Positions 2,079-51,973 of a DNA stretch of 64,000 nt are shown here, piece after piece. The notes under the pieces are model-generated. The model was not told the origin of the DNA. It saw nothing but the letters and a program-made list of their open reading frames with translations, and did not search any database. Every line of letters begins with the position of its first letter. Position 1 is the first letter of the stretch. The position numbers and the translations under genes are program-made. Source of the stretch: Leucothrix mucor DSM 2157 (lineage in GTDB: Bacteria; Pseudomonadota; Gammaproteobacteria; Thiotrichales; Thiotrichaceae); NCBI RefSeq assembly GCF_000419525.1, contig NZ_ATTE01000001.1, forward strand, positions 806,001 through 870,000, written 5' to 3'.

Positions 2079-2732
2079 TTGAAGTTATACAGATATAGGT
2101 CTGCTAACATTAATACGTTTTCTGAGATTTTAAATCGTTGTGCTTGGCACTCACGGTTAGATAAGTTAAATGACCCTTTCGAAGGTATATATGTCAATCG
2201 CTCAAATCTAACCGATATTGATAACCTAATAGAACAACTAAAAGTATGTTGCTTTAGTACAGACCACGAAAACCTCCTGCTTTGGGCTCACTACTCAGAT
2301 AATCATGAAGGTGTTTGTTTAGAGTATGATTTGACCGACGATGAGTTTAGGGGGCAGTTCTTTAAGGTCAAATATAGTAACCATCAACCAGTTTTAAATG
2401 ATATTAAGTATTTCCCCAAGGGACACCCCTCAGAAGGTTTTTTACATATCAATATTAATGATAAAAGTGCCAGTGTTTTTTTAACAAAAAGTTTGGACTG
2501 GGAGTATGAGCAAGAATGGAGAAAGTTCAGAATATCTGACAACAACGCTGTAGGTGAGATCGCAGAAGTTCCTGGTCGATTAAGTGCCGTGTATTTTGGT
2601 CTAAGGGCATCTAAGGCTACAAAGCAAATTATACATAAGCTATTGCCAAAACCTATAGACATTGATTTGTGGGAGTCATCTCTGGAAGCGGGCAGTTACA
2701 AACTAACTTTTAGTAAGTACTCGATTGACTAA
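2079..2732 (+). CDS. DUF2971 family protein
   Basis: About 217 residues from the start chosen here. Motifs of the DUF2971 family are visible in order: LYRYRS at the N-terminus, a Leu-Asn-Asp-Pro-Phe-Glu segment, CFSTDHENLLLWAHYSD followed by GVCLEYD, then LDWEYEQEWR and YFGLRAS. The first ATG is at 2052, but a clean AAGGAG (2067-2072) sits 6 bases before a TTG at 2079, giving Met-Lys-Leu-Tyr-Arg-Tyr, the typical family N-terminus, so TTG is preferred. The biochemical function of DUF2971 is not established to my knowledge; members are often seen in accessory and defence-rich regions. AT-rich like its upstream neighbour, with which it may form a unit. Confidence 0.85.
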   Translation: MKLYRYRSANINTFSEILNRCAWHSRLDKLNDPFEGIYVNRSNLTDIDNLIEQLKVCCFSTDHENLLLWAHYSDNHEGVCLEYDLTDDEFRGQFFKVKYSNHQPVLNDIKYFPKGHPSEGFLHININDKSASVFLTKSLDWEYEQEWRKFRISDNNAVGEIAEVPGRLSAVYFGLRASKATKQIIHKLLPKPIDIDLWESSLEAGSYKLTFSKYSID

Positions 2733-3199
2733 GGAAAGCAATTAAATAATTTACTACACCAAAATATATAGTGATGCATTAGATAACAATGTATAGATAT
2801 TGATTGTATTAATGTCATGGGATGGAGTAAAATCTTCGGTCATTATTCTGTGTGATGTTAAAGTTTAGGAAGGAATTAGCGTTTAGAATAGTGAAGTGTC
2901 GTATATTCGACTAGTCAGAGATTTATAACCTACAGCATTCAGCGTGCTGCTGTGTGTAGGATGTTTCACTTGAGATTTGAAGTGAATTTAATCATCACAC
3001 AGTCTGCGCATAAATATCCAGTCTCATTAAGTTTGACAAGCCACGTAAATACCAGCTGACCTCAAAGGGTTAGCCTTTCTGTTAGGTCTTAACTGCTTAT
3101 TCCAATATGTTCAACATACTCTATATGTTTCTTACTGTAAGCTAGACTTGTTTAATACTAGGCTACAGTAGTTATGCGCACAGTTTCTTTACAGAATCC
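2733..3199. other. Non-coding accessory stretch, no intact gene
   Basis: AT-rich sequence between the DUF2971 gene and the YoeB relic. No open frame with homology was seen on either strand. It holds an imperfect inverted repeat around 2931-2963 (CCTACA...TGTAGG) and a short palindrome TATGTT-C-AACATA at about 3105-3117. It looks like decayed mobile or toxin-antitoxin DNA, but nothing identifies it. Confidence 0.4.
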
Positions 3200-3397
3200 C
3201 GAAATAGCCTGAAATCTGTTCTTGATGGCGTGGTTAATGATGCAAAGCGTTGACCATTTGAAGGTACTTATAAGCCTGAGCCATTGAAGGAAAACTTAAC
3301 TGGTTTTTAGTAACGTAAGATCGATGATACCAATCGATTGTTCTACGCCGTTAATGACACACATTTGACGATAATTTTCTGTCGTTATCATTACTAG
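3200..3397 (+). pseudogene. Degenerate YoeB-family toxin gene
   Basis: Reading the frame that ends at the TAG of 3395-3397 gives a clear match to the C-terminal two thirds of YoeB, the mRNA interferase toxin of YefM-YoeB modules. PFEGTYKPEPLKENLTGF is followed, after two stops, by RKIDDTNRLFYAVND and the family-defining C-terminus CRYHY. Three in-frame stops break it (TGA at 3251, TAG at 3308, TAA at 3311); the last two replace the usual Trp-Ser of the GFWSRRI motif. The N-terminal part is poorly conserved, so the left boundary is approximate. No intact YefM antitoxin is visible upstream. This is a dead toxin gene. Confidence 0.85.
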
Positions 3398-3518
3398 CTT
3401 GAAATGCAGTTAGCAATTCAAACTACGAATCAGATATGGTGGGCGAGTTTGATGTCTTCGCTTGTGGTTGTGGTGGCCACAACAAAAAATTGAAGGGCCA
3501 TTGCAAAACACAAATAAA

Positions 3519-4127
3519 CTACCTTGATTTCATTTGCTGATAAACACTAACCAGCTCCTGCGCTCTTTGTGAAACCTCTTCGGCTGTACTCCCCGGCTTA
3601 TACAAAGAGCCACCAATACCAAAGCCATCAATACCCGCATCACACCAGTGTTGTAAATTATCGGAGGCGACTCCACCGACTGCAAATAGCTCGATTGTAT
3701 CGGGCAAAACTGCTCGAATGGCAGACACACCAGAGTAGCCAAGTGCAGAGGCAGGAAAAAGCTTAAGTCCATCAGCTCCCCAGTCCAGAGCCGAAAAGCA
3801 TTCTGTTGGCGTGAGTACGCCGGGGTACGACTGCATTTCAAGCGCTTTGGTTTCCCTGATAATCGCTTCATTACAATTTGGCGATACGACAAAAGAGCCA
3901 CCGGCACGCTTTACTTGCGATACATCCGCCAGCTTTACAACGGTTCCGGCACCGATATTTACCTGATCGCCAAACCGGTTAGCCATCACTTCAATCGATT
4001 TAAGTGCATTTGGAGAATTTAATGGCACCTCGATCCACGTGATACCACTATCAACCAAAGCGGCTGTGATGCTTTCGGCTTCATTAGGTTTTATACCACG
4101 TAATATAGCGATTAATTTTAGGGTCAT
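3519..4127 (-). CDS. dgoA: 2-dehydro-3-deoxy-6-phosphogalactonate aldolase
   Basis: 202 residues, the usual size of KDPG/KDPGal aldolases (class I, TIM barrel). It cleaves 2-keto-3-deoxy-6-phosphogalactonate into pyruvate and glyceraldehyde 3-phosphate. Visible features: LIAILRGI at the N-terminus, catalytic-region Glu33 in WIEVPLNSP, GAGTV for phosphate and substrate binding, Schiff-base Lys122 in DGLKLFPASALG, and the C-terminal VGGV and GIGGSLY phosphate-binding turns. The LNSP and FPAS-A segments match DgoA better than the gluconate-type Eda. It is the last gene of a five-gene minus-strand operon, 1 base after dgoK, and is the exit point of both sugar-acid branches in the locus. Confidence 0.93.
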   Translation of the reverse strand: MTLKLIAILRGIKPNEAESITAALVDSGITWIEVPLNSPNALKSIEVMANRFGDQVNIGAGTVVKLADVSQVKRAGGSFVVSPNCNEAIIRETKALEMQSYPGVLTPTECFSALDWGADGLKLFPASALGYSGVSAIRAVLPDTIELFAVGGVASDNLQHWCDAGIDGFGIGGSLYKPGSTAEEVSQRAQELVSVYQQMKSR

Positions 4128-4128
4128 T

Positions 4129-5037
4129 TTAATTTCCTTGAGAATCAGAAAGGCTTTGGTACGCTTTAATCAGGCCTGCTAGTGTCATTGCCTTCGGGTC
4201 GTAAGTTTTTGAATCAACATCCAACAACGCTAATGCATTGGCATAAAGTGTTGTCAGAAACGGGTCACCTATAATGGCGACCCGTTGTGATTGCCAATAG
4301 CGCTTAGAGCCGGAGAGTTCAGCGCCAATCAATAAGCCAGATAAATGAGAGCGGGCCATCTCGGGAGGGAAGTCATTGAGTAAGTAGCGAGCCCTTAATC
4401 TGAAGCAATTGGATATCAAGTTTTCAGGGTGCTCTATGCCAGACTTTGCGCCTTCTAAAAATGCATTGTCATTCCAACCGCCTTTAGATGTGCTGTGGCG
4501 CAAGATAGACTGTTCAGATAGCAGGGAAAACATTTCTCCCGTCATGCTCGTGGTGAAATGGTCAACCGTTCCATCTTTCAGTGATACCCACTTGCTATGC
4601 GTACCAGGCAGGCACACAGCGCTAAAAGCATCTGACTCGATAGCTATCAATCCTGCAATTTGGGTTTCCTCTCCACGCATAACGTCAGCGGGTTCAGCCT
4701 GACTAATACCCGGCAAAATATGAACCTTGATGCGTGCATTGTGGGTGTCGACCTGAATGCTATGTTGTATTGAAAAAGGTTCACAAGGAGCTGAACGATA
4801 AGGTGCTTCAGCCCACCCCTGACGTGCTCCGACCATCCCGCAGGCTAGCACTGGAATAATGCGAGCTTCCGGCAGCCAGCTTTGGATAAGCTCCATTAAA
4901 GCGGGTTCAAATGCATCCGGTGTGAGCACTCCCATGCCGTTGCTTGAGCTGGCTTCATCGATCACCTGATTATCTTCACTCATTGCGTAGGCACGTAAAT
5001 GTGTCGTACCCCAATCAACTGCAATCCATGTAATCAT
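4129..5037 (-). CDS. dgoK: 2-dehydro-3-deoxygalactonokinase
   Basis: 302 residues, slightly longer than Escherichia coli DgoK. It phosphorylates 2-keto-3-deoxygalactonate to the 6-phosphate that DgoA cleaves. The N-terminus WIAVDWGTTHLRAYAM is the signature of the family (ASKHA-type phosphate-binding loop with DWGTT). Other DgoK-like segments are LACGMVGARQGWAEAPY, PGI near residue 114, GEETQIAGL and LPGTHSKWV. It lies between the enolase-superfamily gene and dgoA in the operon with only 1 base before dgoA, so the kinase and aldolase are co-translated. Confidence 0.95.
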   Translation of the reverse strand: MITWIAVDWGTTHLRAYAMSEDNQVIDEASSSNGMGVLTPDAFEPALMELIQSWLPEARIIPVLACGMVGARQGWAEAPYRSAPCEPFSIQHSIQVDTHNARIKVHILPGISQAEPADVMRGEETQIAGLIAIESDAFSAVCLPGTHSKWVSLKDGTVDHFTTSMTGEMFSLLSEQSILRHSTSKGGWNDNAFLEGAKSGIEHPENLISNCFRLRARYLLNDFPPEMARSHLSGLLIGAELSGSKRYWQSQRVAIIGDPFLTTLYANALALLDVDSKTYDPKAMTLAGLIKAYQSLSDSQGN

Positions 5038-43827: not shown

Positions 43828-45528
43828 ATGACAATATTAGGTGTTGACCTGGGTACCACAAACAGTGCCTGCGGTGTCTGGCGAAACGAAAAAGCAGAAC
43901 TAATCCCCAATGCACTTGGGGATTTTTTAACCCCTTCAGTCGTGTATATCGACCCTGACAATCAGGTGCATGTTGGTAAGGTGGCACAAGAGCGCTCGAT
44001 TACCGAGCCGCAAGCCACTGCCAGCGTGTTTAAGCGATATATGGGCACCCACAAGTCGCTCACCCTGCGTGGTAAGGATTACACGGCGGTTGAGCTATCT
44101 GCGTTTATTTTATCGAGGCTCAAGGAAGACGCTGAAAAATTCCTAGGTGAAACGGTGACTCAGGCAGTGATTAGCGTGCCGGCGTATTTTAACGATACGC
44201 AGCGCAAAGCCACCAAGCAAGCTGGTGAAATGGCAGGCTTGACCGTAGAGCGTTTGGTGAATGAGCCGACAGCGGCAGCGATTGCCTATGGCTTGCACGA
44301 AAAGCCGGAACACGCGCAGTTTATGGTGCTGGATTTGGGCGGCGGCACCTTCGATGTCTCGATCATGGAATATTTCTCCGGCGTGCTGGAAGTGCATGCC
44401 TCCTCCGGTGATAATTTCCTGGGTGGAGAGGACTTTCTGGAAGTGCTGGTTAACCATTACCTAGAGGCTGCCAGTCTTAATCGTAAACAATTAAGCCATA
44501 GTGAATTGCAGAAAATTCGCAGCAAACTGGAACAGGTAAAACGCCAGTTTAATACCGTGGAATCCGTCACCATTGAGCCTATTCTGCACTCGCAAACGGA
44601 TAAGGTCACGGTGAGTCGTGAGCAATTTACTAAGCTTAGCGAGCATTTACTGCACCGAATTCAGCAGCCGATCGAAACCACTTTGCGTGATGCAAATTTA
44701 CGCCCGTCAGACTTAGATGATGTGATTCTGGTTGGTGGCGCAACCCGTATGCAAAGCCTGCGCTCGGCTGTGGCGAAAATGTTTAGACGTTTGCCGATGG
44801 CGAATATTGATCCTGACTTGGTTGTCGCTATGGGCGCTGCCATTCAGGCCGGTTTAAAAGCGCGCGATCAAGCGCTGGATGATGTGGTACTGACCGATGT
44901 CTGTCCGTATACCTTGGGCACTGGCGTATTAAATGAAGCGGATACTGCCGGACTTCAGGGCGATTTATTTAGCCCGATTTTGGAGCGTAACTCCGTGGTG
45001 CCAGCCAGTCGGGTAGCGAGCTATTTTACCGTTTATGACAAGCAGCAAGAGCTGGAATTTACCATTTACCAAGGTGAAAGCCGGCTTGTAAAAAACAATA
45101 TTTCACTGGGCTCAATCACCGTAAAAGTCCCCAAAAGTAAGAAGGGCCATGAAGGCGCTGAAGTACGCTTTAGCTATGATATGAATGGCTTGCTGGAAGT
45201 GGATATTAAGGTATTAAGCACGGGCGAAACCTATTACAAAATGATTCAAAATGCGCCGGGTGAGCTTTCTGAAAAAGAGCTGGCCGCCTCGCGTGAAAAA
45301 CTCTCTAAACTAAAATTTCATCCGCGTGAAGAAGAGACCAATCAACTCTTGATTGCACGGGCTGAGCGCTTGTTTGAAAGCCGTCTATCAGAACAGCGGC
45401 AGATGATTCAGAGTAGCCTGAAATGGTTTGAAGGCGTGCTGGAAAAGCAAAATGCTCGGGATATTAGCAATGCGCAGGATGAGTTTTGTGTGTTTTTGGA
45501 TGATCTTGAACAAGACCGATTGTTCTAA
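43828..45528 (+). CDS. hscC: Hsp70-family chaperone HscC
   Basis: 566 residues. Actin-like ATPase domain with [28 protein letters not shown], and [14 protein letters not shown]; substrate-binding domain from about 370 ([22 protein letters not shown]). Length and motifs match HscC (Hsc62), a specialised Hsp70, not DnaK. Its stop overlaps the J-domain gene by one base (TAATG), so the J-protein is probably its dedicated partner. Confidence 0.93.
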
Positions 45529-46979
45529 TGGATTGCTGGAAAATACTCGGCATTGAGCCGAACTCAGATAAGAAAACCATTAAAATCGCTTATGCGAAGC
45601 AGTTAAAAACGACCCGGCCAGATGATGATGCTGAGGCGTTTCAACGACTGCATCAGGCTTATAAAACCGCATTGATTTGGGTGCCAGTTGAGTATCGTGA
45701 TGATGCTGAAAATGACTGGATGATCTCGCCACAAGCTCAACTGCGTGAAGCGTATGAGCGAGATATTGAGCCGCTGCAGGAAGATATTGAGCCGCTGCAG
45801 GAAGATATTGAACCGCTGAAGGAAGATAGTCGCTTACTGCAGCAAGATGCTGATTTGGCGGAAAGTGTTACTGCCGTTGAGTCAACGCCCGAAGACAGCA
45901 TTGATACATCTCATCCAAATCCACAAACAGAGCGGCAGGCGGAATCTCAAATTGCGCCTCGCTCAGAGCTTGCAGATACAGCAACCCAGCCTAAAGCTTT
46001 GCCTGATTCTGATTCTGATTCTGATTCTGATTCTGATTCTGAGTTAATTAATGAACGCGCTCAGCTTGCGGCGATGCTTCAATCAGTTATGTCGGATAGG
46101 TCGGATGACTCTGAAGACGCGCTAAAGCACTTCCCAAATCCTGCTCCCAGCGCCAATGACTTTAGCCCTGAAGAGCTACAATTGCTCGAAGATATTCGTA
46201 ATCAAGAGCATCACCTATCAGAAGATTGGGCGGTATTCTGCGAGAAGCTTGAAGAGATCATTGCATCACCTAAGCAAAGTGCGGAGCTTCAAAGCTGGAA
46301 GTTCATTGAGGAGCTATCATCATTTCGCGATCTGGAGTTTCGTAAAGCGATCTCTGATAAAGCCTTTGAGGCAGTGGCAGAGGCCAATGATGTTTCCTTA
46401 CAAAAGAAGCATTTATACATAAAACGACCCGTTTTAAATTACCTGAATGAGCTATTTGGCTGGGATAAAAAGTGGCAGGAATATGAGTATCATTACAGCC
46501 GCAGCCAGCTAAACGCGATTTTTCCGTATTTGGAGGAAGCTGAGCGGGTTAATAAGCGCAGTAAAATCAAACGTGAACTGTTTTACTATCGTCGCGGGGC
46601 GGCGTTTGCGATTGATATGGTCATCATGTTTCTTCCGCTGTTATTTATTAATCCCTTGGCCGAGCTGCTGGGGATGAAAGACATGGTCGGAGAGATGCTA
46701 GTGTGGTGGTTTGCGGCTTATGTTTTGTTGGCGATTCCACTGCAAGAGTCTTCAATTGCACAAGCGACCGTTGGCAAGCGAGTGATGGGGTTGATAGTGA
46801 TTGACCGACGGGGTGATAGGATTAGTTTTATCCATGCTTTATCACGCAGTATTGTGACGGCTTTTTGCGTGGTGATCTTTAAGCTAGTGGTGTTTATCAA
46901 TCTGATTCTGGCATGGTGGCGTTCGGAGATCTTGCAGGATCTGTTGACTCGCTCCTATGTTGTGCAAAGGCCTAAGTAG
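45528..46979 (+). CDS. J-domain protein with C-terminal RDD membrane domain
   Basis: 483 residues. N-terminal J domain (WKILGIEPNSDKKTIKIAYAKQLKTTRPDDDAEAFQRLHQAY); the usual HPD tripeptide is Arg30-Pro-Asp here. Then a low-complexity acidic linker with three 7-residue repeats Asp-Ile-Glu-Pro-Leu-Gln/Lys-Glu (coded by 21-base repeats at 45762-45824) and a six-fold Asp-Ser repeat (46005-46040). The C-terminus is an RDD domain with two to three helices (RRGAAFAIDMVIMFLP, GKRVMGLIV). Translationally coupled to hscC, so probably a membrane-tethered co-chaperone, as with DjlB/DjlC for HscC in E. coli. Confidence 0.85.
   Translation: MDCWKILGIEPNSDKKTIKIAYAKQLKTTRPDDDAEAFQRLHQAYKTALIWVPVEYRDDAENDWMISPQAQLREAYERDIEPLQEDIEPLQEDIEPLKEDSRLLQQDADLAESVTAVESTPEDSIDTSHPNPQTERQAESQIAPRSELADTATQPKALPDSDSDSDSDSDSELINERAQLAAMLQSVMSDRSDDSEDALKHFPNPAPSANDFSPEELQLLEDIRNQEHHLSEDWAVFCEKLEEIIASPKQSAELQSWKFIEELSSFRDLEFRKAISDKAFEAVAEANDVSLQKKHLYIKRPVLNYLNELFGWDKKWQEYEYHYSRSQLNAIFPYLEEAERVNKRSKIKRELFYYRRGAAFAIDMVIMFLPLLFINPLAELLGMKDMVGEMLVWWFAAYVLLAIPLQESSIAQATVGKRVMGLIVIDRRGDRISFIHALSRSIVTAFCVVIFKLVVFINLILAWWRSEILQDLLTRSYVVQRPK
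45762..45824 (+). repeat. Three 21-base tandem repeats in the J-protein gene
   Basis: Units 45762-45782 and 45783-45803 are identical; the third, 45804-45824, differs at two bases. The unit codes for Asp-Ile-Glu-Pro-Leu-Gln-Glu. In-frame copy-number change would only alter linker length. Confidence 0.9.
46005..46040 (+). repeat. Hexanucleotide repeat GATTCT x6 in the J-protein gene
   Basis: Six perfect GATTCT copies coding (Asp-Ser)6 in the acidic linker. As a 6-base unit, slippage keeps the frame. Confidence 0.9.
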
Positions 46980-46986
46980 ATTGCAG

Positions 46987-47241
46987 CTATACAATAGTGC
47001 AGCTTGGTACGGTTTTTTTGAAATTCTGTAGAATCATTTTTTCGACATTTTTTGTTAGACTCTTGTGTATGAGTTGTCTTGATTTTTGATTTACCTTGTT
47101 TTTATAAGTAACTCGTGAAATTTCAAAGCAAAGTTCGGAGTCATCTCGTCTTTTAAGGTCTTTCCCAAGTTCGCTGAAGAGAAAGCTAATCCTGCATGTC
47201 CCTTGATTAGCGTTATGGGTATAGCTGTAATTTATTTCCAT
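46987..47241 (-). CDS. Small hypothetical protein, possible third gene of the nuclease module
   Basis: 84 residues, AT-rich. Sequence begins MEINYSYTHNANQGTCRISFLFSELGKDLKRRD, apparently beta-rich then basic. It follows the 280-residue gene by 41 bases, in a different frame, and the open frame extends upstream a little beyond the ATG. It could be a separate small gene or the displaced C-terminus of that protein. No clear ribosome site. Function unknown. Confidence 0.5.
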   Translation of the reverse strand: MEINYSYTHNANQGTCRISFLFSELGKDLKRRDDSELCFEISRVTYKNKVNQKSRQLIHKSLTKNVEKMILQNFKKTVPSCTIV

Positions 47242-47282
47242 TTTAAGAATATAGTAATAATCATAGTAGCTGTGATCATTGA

Positions 47283-48125
47283 TTAAAATATATCATTAAT
47301 TCTGTCACCATCTATTTGAACTCTGCTGACCGTATTTTTCATCCAGGCAATCTGTGGTGTATCTGGAAGCTCAATACCATCTTTATTCAAGCTAACTTCT
47401 ATAGTGTTAACGTCGCCCAGAACTAGGTTTTTACCAAGACCGCCTGTCAGTCTTTTAAAGAACAAAATTCGCTGACTGTTGGTGAATAGGCCAAACGTAA
47501 TCTTTGCAGGCTCTGAGTTGCTTACAATGCCGCAGCTTTTTAGCTCTTTTGATAAGTGAGAAATAATTCGGCTGTTAATGATGCCCGTTTCCACTGAGGT
47601 ATGTTCCGATGAGACATAAAGTTTAAGGTTTTTGCCTGTTTTTTCAACTATTACCTCTCCATGAAATATCAAATCACGTTTAACCAAGTCTTGACTGATA
47701 TCCCTACGGTGAACTGTGTATTTTATAGTTGCTTTGCTTGGGCTGTTTACAACAAACCTTGGAAAGCTTTTGAAGTCTACATGCTCCATATCCACACATG
47801 GATCGAACTTATCCGGGTCAAAGGCTGACTTCAGCGGAGTTGTCCAATCGGAGTCGTTTTTACATAGGTCAAGGCTAGAAAATTTGTTTTTTGGCTTAGA
47901 TTCGCGGTCAAGTGATTTATCCAGTAGCTTTCTAAATTCAGTGTCAGTGATTAGGGTTGATGAAAGCAAGGGTACAGTGATGCTTTTACTTGAGTTGCCT
48001 ACATAGATTCCTTTGTCCTTTAGGGCTGAGTTGATCTCTCCATGAGAAATATGTGAACTGTTTAGTAAAGTACGAAGTTCTGAGCCAGTGGGTATGGTGT
48101 TACTAATGTCTAGATTATTAGGCAT
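47283..48125 (-). CDS. Hypothetical protein, partner of the nuclease-like gene
   Basis: 280 residues; no family recognised. The N-terminal 75 residues (SELRTLLNSSHISHGEINSALKDKGIYVG, then TDTEFRKLLDKSL) look like a repeated helical unit. The rest is beta-rich with charged segments. Starts 5 bases after the nuclease-like gene's stop, so the pair is co-transcribed. It may be the sensor or regulator of a two-component defence module, an inference from gene pairing only. Confidence 0.65.
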   Translation of the reverse strand: MPNNLDISNTIPTGSELRTLLNSSHISHGEINSALKDKGIYVGNSSKSITVPLLSSTLITDTEFRKLLDKSLDRESKPKNKFSSLDLCKNDSDWTTPLKSAFDPDKFDPCVDMEHVDFKSFPRFVVNSPSKATIKYTVHRRDISQDLVKRDLIFHGEVIVEKTGKNLKLYVSSEHTSVETGIINSRIISHLSKELKSCGIVSNSEPAKITFGLFTNSQRILFFKRLTGGLGKNLVLGDVNTIEVSLNKDGIELPDTPQIAWMKNTVSRVQIDGDRINDIF

Positions 48126-48130
48126 GATGG

Positions 48131-49072
48131 TTACTCTTGGACAAGGTCTAAAATAGATCTTCTTAGTGAAAAGGGGGTTACCGATTCATTTCTATCTTGA
48201 AATGCTAGACGAATTCTAGTTGCATCCTCCATGTCCTTAGTGGGATTGAAATTTGATATGCCTATTTTGATTGTGTCAATTAGGCCTCTTGAGAAGCTTA
48301 AACCATAGCCTATAAGCTTTTTATAGGAGTCATCACTGAACGGATCATTAGAGTAAAGGAACATCTCTTTTGTTTTGTCTTTTTGTACTATGGCGACTAC
48401 TAAGTCTGATGCAATCATTCCTAGAGGTAGGTATGAGCCCTTCGGCTCAGTGTCTACTGAAACAGCAGTTCCTAAGTTTGGATAGTAAAATTCATATTTT
48501 CCGGTTGTACTGCACTCTTTATCAAGGTGGTCAATTACTTGTAGAAGAAATGATGCACGAGCATTATCTATTAAATAGATAGGGGTACTGCTCGAGTTGT
48601 TCAGTCTCATGTTGGCAAGCGAGGGGCGAAGACTAGTCTCCAATTCATCAATGTGGTTACTCAAAAAAACTAATAAGCCTGAGTGTTTTTTGTATTTTTT
48701 GGGGTTTACCTGATCCTCTATGATGGAGAGTTCCTCACTGTACCTTGCACACTCAATAATTTCATGAAGTTCGTCCATATCCTCCTTAACTTTTTTCTTA
48801 ATTGCATCTTGGGTTGCTGGATAAGGGTTTTTTGTATTCTTGACTGAAACATGAACAAATTCAGTTACTTCATCATGAAAAGGATCGTCATAGACAAAAA
48901 TCTGGTCTTCTCCGTGGCTTTTTTTCTGGTTGTTGGATTCGTTCAAGTGGGTAGATGTATTGCATCGAATCGACACATTGTGCATTGATAATTTCCAGCC
49001 AATTTTATCAAGTAACTTCGATGCTATTTTTTCACCAATTTCGCCTGAGCTTTTAGATCCCTCACCACTCAT
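48131..49072 (-). CDS. Putative PD-(D/E)XK nuclease-like protein
   Basis: 313 residues, AT-rich. The N-terminal 80 residues carry a restriction-endonuclease-like pattern: a helix with Glu11 and Glu14 (GEIGEKIASKLLDKIGW), then Asp56 in HGEDQIFVY and, 19 residues later, the Ser-Val-Lys (76-78) of FVHVSVKNTK in place of (D/E)xK. The remainder is alpha/beta with no recognised domain. The first gene of a minus-strand pair facing the hscC side, bordered by a cobQ relic. Similar two-gene nuclease modules (for example GAPS4) are phage-defence systems; this match is a hypothesis. Confidence 0.55.
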   Translation of the reverse strand: MSGEGSKSSGEIGEKIASKLLDKIGWKLSMHNVSIRCNTSTHLNESNNQKKSHGEDQIFVYDDPFHDEVTEFVHVSVKNTKNPYPATQDAIKKKVKEDMDELHEIIECARYSEELSIIEDQVNPKKYKKHSGLLVFLSNHIDELETSLRPSLANMRLNNSSSTPIYLIDNARASFLLQVIDHLDKECSTTGKYEFYYPNLGTAVSVDTEPKGSYLPLGMIASDLVVAIVQKDKTKEMFLYSNDPFSDDSYKKLIGYGLSFSRGLIDTIKIGISNFNPTKDMEDATRIRLAFQDRNESVTPFSLRRSILDLVQE

Positions 49073-49245
49073 TTGTCAAATCCCATAATCATTAGATATT
49101 CAATTAGCCTTGTATTCTACGATATTTTAATGTTATTTAGGTTGAAATATTTACAAAATAGCCTTCACTCCTTAGTGCAGATCATTATCAAATGAATCAT
49201 ACGAGTCTTGCGATTTTTCCGAATATTTGCATACATTCACAGATC
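49073..49245. other. AT-rich upstream region of the nuclease module
   Basis: Leader and likely promoter of the minus-strand pair starting at 49072. No gene seen on either strand. Composition changes back to chromosomal values near 49240, where the cobQ relic begins. Confidence 0.4.
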
Positions 49246-49400
49246 CCAATAAGCTGGCATCGTTAGGGGATCTATTCAGGATAGGTCCTATGAGTGGCGT
49301 GCGATTATTTCCTGTTCAATGGCACCAAGTGCTTTGCCTAATAAGTGGGGAAGTGTGCCACCACAGTTAATATCAGGGGCTAGTAACATTCTTGCTGAAC
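49246..49400 (-). pseudogene. Degraded fragment of a cobyric acid synthase gene
   Basis: On the minus strand this reads ARMLLAPDINCGGTLPHLLG, aligning with residues near 161-180 of the intact CobQ encoded at 50513-51973 (AKVLLASDIDRGGAFAHLLG), then continues with diverged sequence, an in-frame stop, and DNA-level similarity to about codon 211 (shared TTATTCAGGATA and AAGCTGGC). It is a relic of a second or earlier cobQ copy, not functional. Confidence 0.8.
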
Positions 49401-49539
49401 TGTAAGGAATGAAAGCTATGACTGTTCGGTTGCTGCTATGGTGCTTTGCCGTGCAGCAATCGCGGTTGCTTTTTGTCGGTAAAAGTCCAAGAAAAAATAA
49501 ACTATCATTACGCCTAAATACTACGGTGGAAATCTATCT

Positions 49540-50430
49540 ATGTTCCAACATGCAAGCCTGTTAGCCGAGCTGAAAAAATGGTCGCTCACCAAACCTATTC
49601 GTAGCTCAGCAGTGTTTGTGTTGTTGGCGGTTATGATCATCGGTGGTTGCACAACAATCAATCGGGAATATAAGGACCGTGAGCCTGCTTGTACAACTGA
49701 GCTAAAATGCATAGGCCAGAAAATCTATAAAAACGAAACCGGTGGCAAGCTTGAGAATTTAATCTTCTGGAGTCCAAGCGAGGCCTTTCCATCGCTTGGA
49801 ATTGGTCACTTTATTTGGTATCCGGCAGCAGAAAAGCAGGGCTTTAAAGAGGCGTTTCCCGATCTAGTTCGCCATCTTCAGGCTAATGGTGCGCAAGTGC
49901 CTCTTTGGTTGTCTCGCCAGATTCAAATCGGCTCATTGTGGAATAGCAGAGAGCAGATGGAGCAGGACAGAGGCGGTCGAAGATTCCGGGAATTACAGCA
50001 GTTATTGTTGGATACCACCGACTTACAGACGACCTTCTTATTTGAACGCTTGGATAAGGCGCTGCCGACAATGCTCAGCGCAGTCAACCCTGAAAGCCGC
50101 GCTTTAATCACTAATCGCTTTAATACCATGAAGGCCAGCTCTGGTGGGCTGTATCCCTTAGTGGACTATGTGAATTTTAAGGGCGAAGGTACGGTAATGG
50201 CCGAGCGTTACAATGGCCAAGGCTGGGGCTTGCTGCAAGTGTTGGAAAATATGCAAGCAGTTCCGGCGGGGCAGCAGGCTTTGCAAGAGTTTTCCCGAGC
50301 TGCTGATTATGTTTTAAGTCGACGTGTGGAAAATGCAGCACCTGAGAAAAATGAGCAGCGTTGGTTACCCGGCTGGCGGGTGCGTTTGAATACATATCAT
50401 GTCGCTCCGGATAAGCCTAAGTGGCTATAG
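49540..50430 (+). CDS. Putative lipoprotein, conserved hypothetical
   Basis: 296 residues. N-terminal hydrophobic segment with lipobox-like IIGGC (Cys about 37), after a longer than usual 20-residue leader. Conserved motifs include CIGQKIYKNETGG, LIFWSPSEAFPSLGIGHFIWYP and YNGQGWGLLQVLE; these recur in unnamed gammaproteobacterial proteins that I recognise only as a family without known function. The Glu after NETGG and the His in GIGHF resemble a lysozyme-like active site arrangement, but this is only an impression. Alone between a cobQ relic and the intact cobQ. Confidence 0.75.
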   Translation: MFQHASLLAELKKWSLTKPIRSSAVFVLLAVMIIGGCTTINREYKDREPACTTELKCIGQKIYKNETGGKLENLIFWSPSEAFPSLGIGHFIWYPAAEKQGFKEAFPDLVRHLQANGAQVPLWLSRQIQIGSLWNSREQMEQDRGGRRFRELQQLLLDTTDLQTTFLFERLDKALPTMLSAVNPESRALITNRFNTMKASSGGLYPLVDYVNFKGEGTVMAERYNGQGWGLLQVLENMQAVPAGQQALQEFSRAADYVLSRRVENAAPEKNEQRWLPGWRVRLNTYHVAPDKPKWL

Positions 50431-50458
50431 CTGGAAGCCCTAAAATAAGCCTAAGTGG
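50411..50458 (+). repeat. Short direct repeat at the lipoprotein 3' end
   Basis: ATAAGCCTAAGTGG occurs at 50411-50424 and 50445-50458; the similarity continues loosely (TATAGCTGGAAG / TATAACTGGAAG). A 34-base tandem duplication that includes the stop codon of the gene. Confidence 0.7.
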
Positions 50459-50512
50459 TTATTTATAACTGGAAGTCATAAAGACAAACCGCTGCAACAT
50501 TGAGGGCTGGTA

Positions 50513-51973
50513 TTAGTCAATCAACCCAATGGCCCGATCAATTGCATTCATATCGCAATGGGTTTCCAAGTGCAGCGCCAGTGTATTCAACGCGGCATCA
50601 ACCTGATCACTCCACTCGCCACTTTCAGCCTCTACACCTAAGCGAGATAAAAAGGCCTGTCGATACACGCCATTATCAAATAGCCCATGCGCATACATTC
50701 CGGCAATATTGCCTTGCACATAGCCAATGACATCACCTTGCTGATTACGCAAATAGGGCTTAGTACCCGCGTCGGCAGTGGTTTTGCCATGATGGATTTC
50801 ATAGCCGGTAACTTGCGCGCCGGATTCAATCAAAGTCGCGCGAGTTTGTTGCGTGGTTTTAATGGCTTCCAGTGTGGTGCTTATGGCCAGTAACCCTAAT
50901 CCATCACTCGTATAACCACCTTCCAAACCATGCGGATCAAGTAAGGTTTTTCCAAGCATTTGCATGCCGCCACAAACCCCTAAAATCTGAGTACCTTGTG
51001 CCGCTAGCTGATGAATTTTTGCAGCAAAGCCTTGTTGCTTTAGAAAGTTTAAGTCATGGCTAACGTGCTTGGAGCCAGGCAGAATAACCGCCGCCACTTG
51101 GTTCAAATCACTCACTTCACGCACAAAATTAACCTGTACCGCAGGCTCATTCACTAACGCATCAAACTCATCGAAATTCGACATATAGGGCGTAATAATG
51201 ATCGCAATTTCAGGTTTGGTATTGTGGCTAACCACCGTTTTATGAGAATAGGCATCCTCATCCGGCAGCGGCAGATTGAGCATGGGCACAATGCCGAGTG
51301 TGGGAATCTGCGTTTTCTCTTCCAGCCACTCCATCGCATTGCCTAGTAAGCTGGCGTCGCCACGGAATTTATTCAGGATAAAACCAATCAGCTTAGCGCG
51401 CTCATTCTCCGCTAAGCAATGCCAGGTGCCTAATAGGTGGGCAAATGCGCCGCCACGGTCAATATCAGAGGCTAGCAGCACTTTAGCTTGTGCCTGCAGA
51501 GCGACGCTCATATTTACAATATCGCCTGCTCGCAGATTAATCTCGGCAGGACTGCCTGCGCCTTCGATAATCAGCAGATCGTAGCGGTCTTGCGTGAGTG
51601 CCAAGCTATCTTTAACCGTTTCCCAGAGATGCATTTTTCGCGATTGCCAAGGGATGGCTTGCAGCTTGGGGTTAGACTTGCCCAATACAATCACTTGCGA
51701 ACGTGAATCGGCTTCCGGCTTTAACAGCACCGGATTCATATGCACATCTGGCGCAATGCGAGCGGCTTGTGCCTGTAACAATTGCGCGCGGCCAATTTCG
51801 CCACCCTCTGGCGTCACACCGGCATTATTACTCATATTCTGCGCTTTAAATGGCGCAACGCGAATGCCACGGTTGGCGTACAAACGACAGAAGCCGGCAA
51901 CCAAATAGGATTTTCCGGCATCTGACGTACAGCCCTGAATCATCAGGGGAGAGAGGATTTTTGAACTAGGCAT
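50513..51973 (-). CDS. cobQ: Cobyric acid synthase
   Basis: 486 residues. N-terminal P-loop-like MIQGCTSDAGKSYLVAGFCR and FKAQNMSNNAG, central dethiobiotin-synthase-like region, and a C-terminal class I glutamine amidotransferase domain with Cys in GVCGGMQMLG and His in YEIHHGKT. It amidates four side chains of adenosylcobyrinic acid diamide in cobalamin synthesis. No other cob gene is in the window, so it is isolated from its pathway. Just downstream of a TDT-family transporter gene on the same strand. Confidence 0.95.
   Translation of the reverse strand: MPSSKILSPLMIQGCTSDAGKSYLVAGFCRLYANRGIRVAPFKAQNMSNNAGVTPEGGEIGRAQLLQAQAARIAPDVHMNPVLLKPEADSRSQVIVLGKSNPKLQAIPWQSRKMHLWETVKDSLALTQDRYDLLIIEGAGSPAEINLRAGDIVNMSVALQAQAKVLLASDIDRGGAFAHLLGTWHCLAENERAKLIGFILNKFRGDASLLGNAMEWLEEKTQIPTLGIVPMLNLPLPDEDAYSHKTVVSHNTKPEIAIIITPYMSNFDEFDALVNEPAVQVNFVREVSDLNQVAAVILPGSKHVSHDLNFLKQQGFAAKIHQLAAQGTQILGVCGGMQMLGKTLLDPHGLEGGYTSDGLGLLAISTTLEAIKTTQQTRATLIESGAQVTGYEIHHGKTTADAGTKPYLRNQQGDVIGYVQGNIAGMYAHGLFDNGVYRQAFLSRLGVEAESGEWSDQVDAALNTLALHLETHCDMNAIDRAIGLID

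Follow-up and report, generated by a model that had tools for sequence, protein, structure and literature searches.

An AT-rich unit occupies the minus strand at positions 46987-49072 of the window, the whole 64-kb stretch of Leucothrix mucor DNA analysed here. The GC content of the unit is 0.380, versus 0.472 for the window. A value this low occurs in 19 of 620 equal-length windows, and the 12 lowest of these start at 501-1701, in a separate AT-rich stretch. Three open reading frames make up the unit, as the sequence-only reading of this DNA had described. The first, gapS4a (48131-49072, minus strand), specifies a 313-residue protein that family match (NF047933), an alignment of relatives (A3), and a structure model all point to as a predicted PD-(D/E)XK-type nuclease. 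The downstream gene, gapS4b, follows after 5 nucleotides and is read in two pieces: an N-terminal part (47283-48125, minus strand; 280 residues, in the first frame) that closes at an early stop, and a C-terminal part (46987-47289, minus strand) that lies in a different frame. This second frame is open from about 47289 and contains an 84-residue ORF whose ATG is at 47241 (46987-47241). None of the three ORFs has a Pfam match, even at an E-value of 10.

Assignment of the genes comes from NCBIfam. Specifically, GapS4a scores 303.3 bits against NF047933 (cut-off 270), the match covers profile positions 1-301 of 302, and no damage is seen in the gene. The N-terminal part of gapS4b matches NF047934 at 251.7 bits (E 9e-75; profile 1-268 of 355), under the cut-off of 300, and the C-terminal part matches profile positions 284-355 of the same model at 52 bits (E 4.8e-14). 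Searching all six frames of the genome with the GapS4b model likewise returns two pieces in different frames, at 249.7 and 66.9 bits, the C-terminal piece spanning profile positions 268-355 in an open frame of 101 codons. When the L. mucor genome is searched with an intact GapS4b relative, these two pieces alone are found. Because the profile pieces, the six-frame search, and the search with a relative concur, the small third frame encodes the C-terminus of gapS4b, shifted out of frame. The sequence-only reading had counted that frame as a possible third gene and had placed the partner in no known family; the first proposal is ruled out by the match to the C-terminus of the GapS4b profile, and the second gives way to the NF047934 assignment. 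Other matches were set aside as lying at chance level, namely PDC-S49 to the N-terminal part (E 0.036), and TIGR04402 (E 0.029) and TIGR03187 (E 0.079) to the C-terminal part.

On these family assignments, the locus is very probably a divergent form of GAPS4, a known anti-phage system of two genes, with a broken gapS4b. The earlier suggestion that the layout recalls GAPS4 pairs is upheld, and the label "unknown type" is not, since both genes match NCBIfam GapS4a and GapS4b. We file the locus as GAPS4 with a broken gapS4b because the second gene is not one intact frame scoring above the cut-off. The likeness to GAPS4 extends to both gene families, gene order, tight linkage, and the motif residues; the differences are the broken gapS4b and the divergence of GapS4a, which shares no more than 29% identity with any of the 11 other aligned members. 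That GAPS4 protects against phage is presumed here from the NCBIfam names antiphage_GapS4a/b and from its reported description by Mahata et al. 2024 (Nat Microbiol 9:3268), where GAPS4 is reportedly one of the defence systems assigned to Gamma-Mobile-Trio islands; among the papers listed in a literature search by name, none was on the GAPS4 system, and none contained GapS4a or GapS4b. The L. mucor copy lies between core genes, and no recombinase was noticed by eye among the window ORFs of at least 120 residues.

Motif and predicted folds of the two proteins

Alignment A3 contains 12 GapS4a proteins, the L. mucor protein included. All 12 rows match GapS4a alone, and all 12 rows of alignment A4 match GapS4b alone (E 1e-5). 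Gly10-Glu11, Gly13-Glu14, His53-Gly54, Asp56, Ser76, Lys78, and Glu107 are invariant in 12/12 GapS4a sequences. This set includes every residue of the PD-(D/E)XK-like pattern (Glu11/14, Asp56, Ser76-x-Lys78) that had been picked out by inspection, and because the residues are invariant throughout A3, the motif is conserved across phyla. The E...D...xK order of PD-(D/E)XK nucleases is present (E11, E14, D56, K78), with Ser, not D/E, at residue 76. Aligned by eye, at a point where the hhalign alignment is gapped, the Hp1 proteins of two plasmids (L009 and L010) carry T-D-L-K opposite the V-S-V-K of GapS4a. The Asp-x-Lys of Hp1 stands opposite Ser76-x-Lys78 and therefore supports the latter as the (D/E)xK element. 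A sequence search of the PDB found no relative of GapS4a or GapS4b, and a tblastn search of 50,697 phage records with GapS4a found none at E 1e-5.

The AlphaFold2 model of GapS4a (mean pLDDT 77, pTM 0.78) proceeds through a helix (4-23), three strands (28-33, 56-62, 69-80), and a second helix (88-110). Residues about 1-222 match, at Z 5.9-8.1, XisH-family proteins (8.1 and 7.4) and the nuclease domains of McrC (7.7), HamA (7.4; 143 residues, 18% identity), and Shedu (5.9). Residues about 170-313 match RNA polymerase chain E, which we take to be Rpb5-type, together with EcoT38I, PaqCI, Can2, and Cap4 (Z 6.1-9.7). Most of the GapS4a matches fall below Z 8, middling by the tool's own scale, and unrelated carboxylases also appear at Z 5.3-5.8. 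Of 934 Foldseek matches, only two reach E ≤0.001, EcoT38I (probability 1.00, TM 0.22) and Mre11 (probability 0.20); carboxylases and other unrelated proteins rank next. In the structural comparison, EcoT38I aligns with the motif-less C-terminal domain and not with the N-terminal one. Residue 218, in the motif-less second domain, is Gly in the L. mucor protein versus Glu in the 11 other members.

The helix-strand-strand-strand-helix order and the XisH-family, McrC, HamA, and Shedu matches lend moderate support to a restriction-endonuclease-like fold in the motif-bearing N-terminal domain, and the nuclease fold anticipated from the motif is accordingly probable on the model. We infer that GapS4a consists of two tandem endonuclease-like domains, with catalytic residues in the first alone. 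As modelled, the first domain has the fold of HamA (Hachiman), McrC, and Shedu, but its partner protein is a different one. Helicase and AAA+ partners are features of Hachiman and McrBC; the L. mucor locus has no helicase or AAA+ partner. A HamA family search gives a match in 1 of 185 genomes.

For GapS4b, the intact protein of a relative, L015, was modelled (pLDDT 84.4, pTM 0.78). Four N-terminal helices open the model, consistent with the repeated N-terminal helical unit proposed earlier for the partner, and we read the region beyond the helices as two predicted alpha/beta lobes. The best structural match is Iml3 (Z 9.9, rmsd 3.9, 186 residues; 9.5 and 8.7 in kinetochore complexes). RdgC is matched at Z 7.5 (rmsd 5.8, 224 residues) and again at Z 7.0, chain L of human inner kinetochore complexes at Z 7.2-7.6, and CENP-N, in the last row, at Z 5.9. 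Interspersed with these are matches confined to one lobe, to phosphoglucomutases (about 95 residues, Z up to 8.3) and to KA1 and PR-10 domains. Iml3 and RdgC are absent among the 50 matches listed by Foldseek, and an RdgC profile of 13 proteins gives no match to GapS4b (hhalign probability 0.1%). Because Foldseek does not name RdgC and the profile does not match, the likeness between GapS4b and RdgC is one of fold only. In a viral structure library, 4 entries match the GapS4b model with E ≤0.001; they include an uncharacterised protein of a Caudovirales phage (probability 1.00, TM 0.29) and a fragment that carries an Iridovirus label, and a TATA-box-binding-like protein stands further down the list.

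According to excerpts of one paper, lambda RexA, RdgC, Iml3, and Chl4 form one DNA-binding fold group, and the C-terminal half of Iml3 matches the RexA dimerisation domain (PMC11077077). An excerpt of another describes Chl4/Iml3 as resembling RdgC and TBP (eLife, PMC4080450). RexA is absent among the matches listed for GapS4b by Foldseek, by the structural comparison, and in the viral structure library. The modelled two-lobed fold of GapS4b would resemble that of the RdgC/RexA/Iml3-Chl4 group; unlike the members of the group, GapS4b has an extra N-terminal helical part and a nuclease partner.

Insertion site and distribution

To the left of the unit lies a gene for a protein with DnaJ and RDD domains (45528-46979, plus strand; Pfam PF00226 and PF06271). 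To the right lie a gene for a 296-residue protein (49540-50430, plus strand) that has no Pfam or NCBIfam match at E 0.001, and an intact cobQ (50513-51973, minus strand), encoding a cobyric acid synthase of 486 residues (TIGR00313, 451.5 bits). The dnaJ/RDD gene and cobQ converge on an interval that differs within the genus. From the dnaJ/RDD stop to the cobQ end, it measures 13 nt in genome G006, 159 nt in G005, and 3972 nt, with other genes, in G003; in L. mucor it measures 3533 nt (46980-50512) and holds GAPS4, a cobQ relic, and the gene for the 296-residue protein. The earlier view that the unit is an insertion between core genes holds. The interval is a possible insertion hotspot, and the GAPS4 copy was probably horizontally acquired. 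The 296-residue protein has matches in 56 of the 60 genomes of the family sample; in G003 and G006 it is encoded elsewhere in the genome.

The cobQ relic (49241-49401, minus strand) corresponds to CobQ residues 161-212. A tblastn search of the 467-base spacer alone recovers it at E 1e-7, and positions 49250-49396 share 69% DNA identity with part of the intact cobQ, so the adjoining relic noted from the sequence is real. The CobQ 161-212 pieces of the relic lie in two frames. The make-up of the interval points to a recombinational exchange in which a foreign cobQ region took part. Mobile-element ends were not found, the repeats in 46900-50600 being short families of 2 or 3 copies, and no tRNA gene lies within the 64-kb window. 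At the other end of the window, positions 1037-2732 form its most AT-rich stretch (the lowest 2086-base window has 33% GC). This stretch holds a 299-residue ORF with no Pfam or NCBIfam match and a 226-residue DUF2971 protein, preceded by a gene that we take to be nth-like, and is probably a further small insertion.

GAPS4 is rare. It occurs in 2 of 369 sampled genomes of the class, L. mucor included, and in 1 of 57 relatives, which is L. mucor itself. A genome-contig scan with a single GapS4a protein found no relative; the same scan with alignment A1 found 13 GapS4a loci in the species-genome collection, of which nine come from Gammaproteobacteria, two from Desulfobacterota bins, and two from Bacteroidota. 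GapS4a-like matches also occur in 16 plasmid records, 4 of which were examined. Two of the four (L007, L008) carry GAPS4, with both families above their cut-offs; L010 carries 3HP according to PADLOC, and L009 is 3HP-like by eye. L009 is a Vibrio cidicii plasmid and L010 an Enterobacter roggenkampii plasmid, each with a 3HP-like gene trio. In a Desulfobacteraceae bin (L019), a 611-residue protein (2583-4418), whose start we take to resemble DUF4062-type proteins, adjoins gapS4a-gapS4b.

Proposed mechanism, the frame break, and rival explanations

The most likely reading is that the two proteins form a DNA-sensing nuclease and that GapS4b is interrupted in L. mucor, by mutation or by assembly error. 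GapS4a would be a metal-dependent DNase with its active site (Glu11/Glu14, Asp56, Lys78) in the first endonuclease-like domain, and the motif-less second domain would have a structural or DNA-binding role. GapS4b, with its N-terminal helices and its RdgC/Iml3-like two-lobed body, would bind or clamp DNA. The idea is that GapS4b directs or licenses GapS4a onto invading DNA, which GapS4a would then cut.

The first frame of gapS4b ends at a point that corresponds to residue 277 of the 372-residue L015 protein. If the RdgC/Iml3-like fold predicted for GapS4b holds, the break takes off the last three strands and a helix, most of the second lobe. Because the frame change removes this much of GapS4b, GAPS4 as assembled is probably inactive. 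Beyond the break, the C-terminal frame contains no stop; a first-order Markov simulation puts the chance of 95 open codons at about 0.002. Because the frame is still open past the break, the break is either recent or an assembly error. We lean toward a real mutation. A serious contender, to which we give somewhat less credence, is that the frame break arose in sequencing or assembly and that the GAPS4 of this strain is intact and working. An error would account for a C-terminal part with no further stop (101 codons, 66.9 bits) beside an undamaged gapS4a, and the frame change sits in a short A/T-rich stretch. However, the assembly consists of 2 contigs only, and neither a nearby dnaK-like gene nor cobQ shows a break when aligned over its whole length with its G006 counterpart.

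The pair could also serve DNA processing other than defence, for example recombination or control of the host's own elements. The RdgC-like fold predicted for GapS4b would suit such work, and because the L. mucor genome encodes a true RdgC elsewhere, the fold has a DNA-processing role in this organism. We nevertheless consider a non-defence role quite improbable: the patchy distribution (2/369; 1/57) and the presence on plasmids fit defence better.

We regard as very improbable a natural split variant, in which GapS4b works as two chains or through programmed frameshifting. In the L015 model, the portion lost comprises three strands and the final helix, which could fold as a compact piece of their own. 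The positions of the break and of the new start argue otherwise: the break falls inside predicted helix 273-280, and the ATG of the C-terminal ORF aligns with residue 293 of relatives, inside predicted strand 288-300. By eye, AAGAG precedes the gapS4b start, but no ribosome-binding site precedes the ATG of the C-terminal ORF and no classical slippery heptamer is present at the junction. Moreover, gapS4b is a single frame in 13/13 examined relatives with a complete second gene, comprising 2 plasmids and 11 of the 13 genome loci (369-397 residues, counting from the earliest possible start; contig ends truncate the 2 remaining loci).

That the locus is a 3HP-type or other Hp1-related module instead of GAPS4 is scarcely credible: GapS4a does match PADLOC Hp1 (E 1.3e-6), and when 12 GapS4a proteins are compared as a profile with the Enterobacter Hp1 of L010, hhalign gives a probability of 97.1% over 212 columns, but GapS4a scores 26.3 bits against PADLOC Hp1 versus 143.1 for the Enterobacter Hp1 itself, PADLOC detects neither Hp2 nor Hp3 in the three unit ORFs, and NCBIfam assigns the genes to GapS4a and GapS4b. 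Hp1 and GapS4a are remote homologues, whereas 3HP has three genes (Hp1-Hp2-Hp3). Of four GapS4a proteins scanned, those of L. mucor and L007 match PADLOC Hp1 and those of L005 and L008 do not. Between the partners, Hp2 against GapS4b is marginal at most (hhalign probability 8.5%), and the L010 Hp2 has no match to the GapS4b models. From these sequence comparisons, the GAPS4 and 3HP nucleases may be of common ancestry.

The preferred reading, an interrupted DNA-sensing nuclease, can be carried further, to a version that we offer as speculation and consider rather unlikely as a whole. GapS4b would be an RdgC/RexA/CENP-L-like DNA clamp that recognises invading DNA by its topology or its state of replication and brings in GapS4a, a protein of two tandem endonuclease-fold domains, one active and the other dead; a single superfamily of clamp-guided nucleases would have GAPS4 and 3HP as branches; and this strain would be a natural loss-of-clamp mutant that tolerates unpartnered GapS4a. 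If so, the tolerance of unpartnered GapS4a would mean that GapS4b is an activator, not an antitoxin.

For two proteins with no sequence relative in the PDB, the predicted folds provide leads, in the form of a DNA-clamp-like partner and a motif-less second endonuclease-like domain. The sequence link between GapS4a and the Hp1 protein of 3HP is a further lead, and the gene count of the module is corrected to two. Finally, if the break is real, L. mucor offers a natural experiment on whether GapS4a does any harm when full-length GapS4b is missing.
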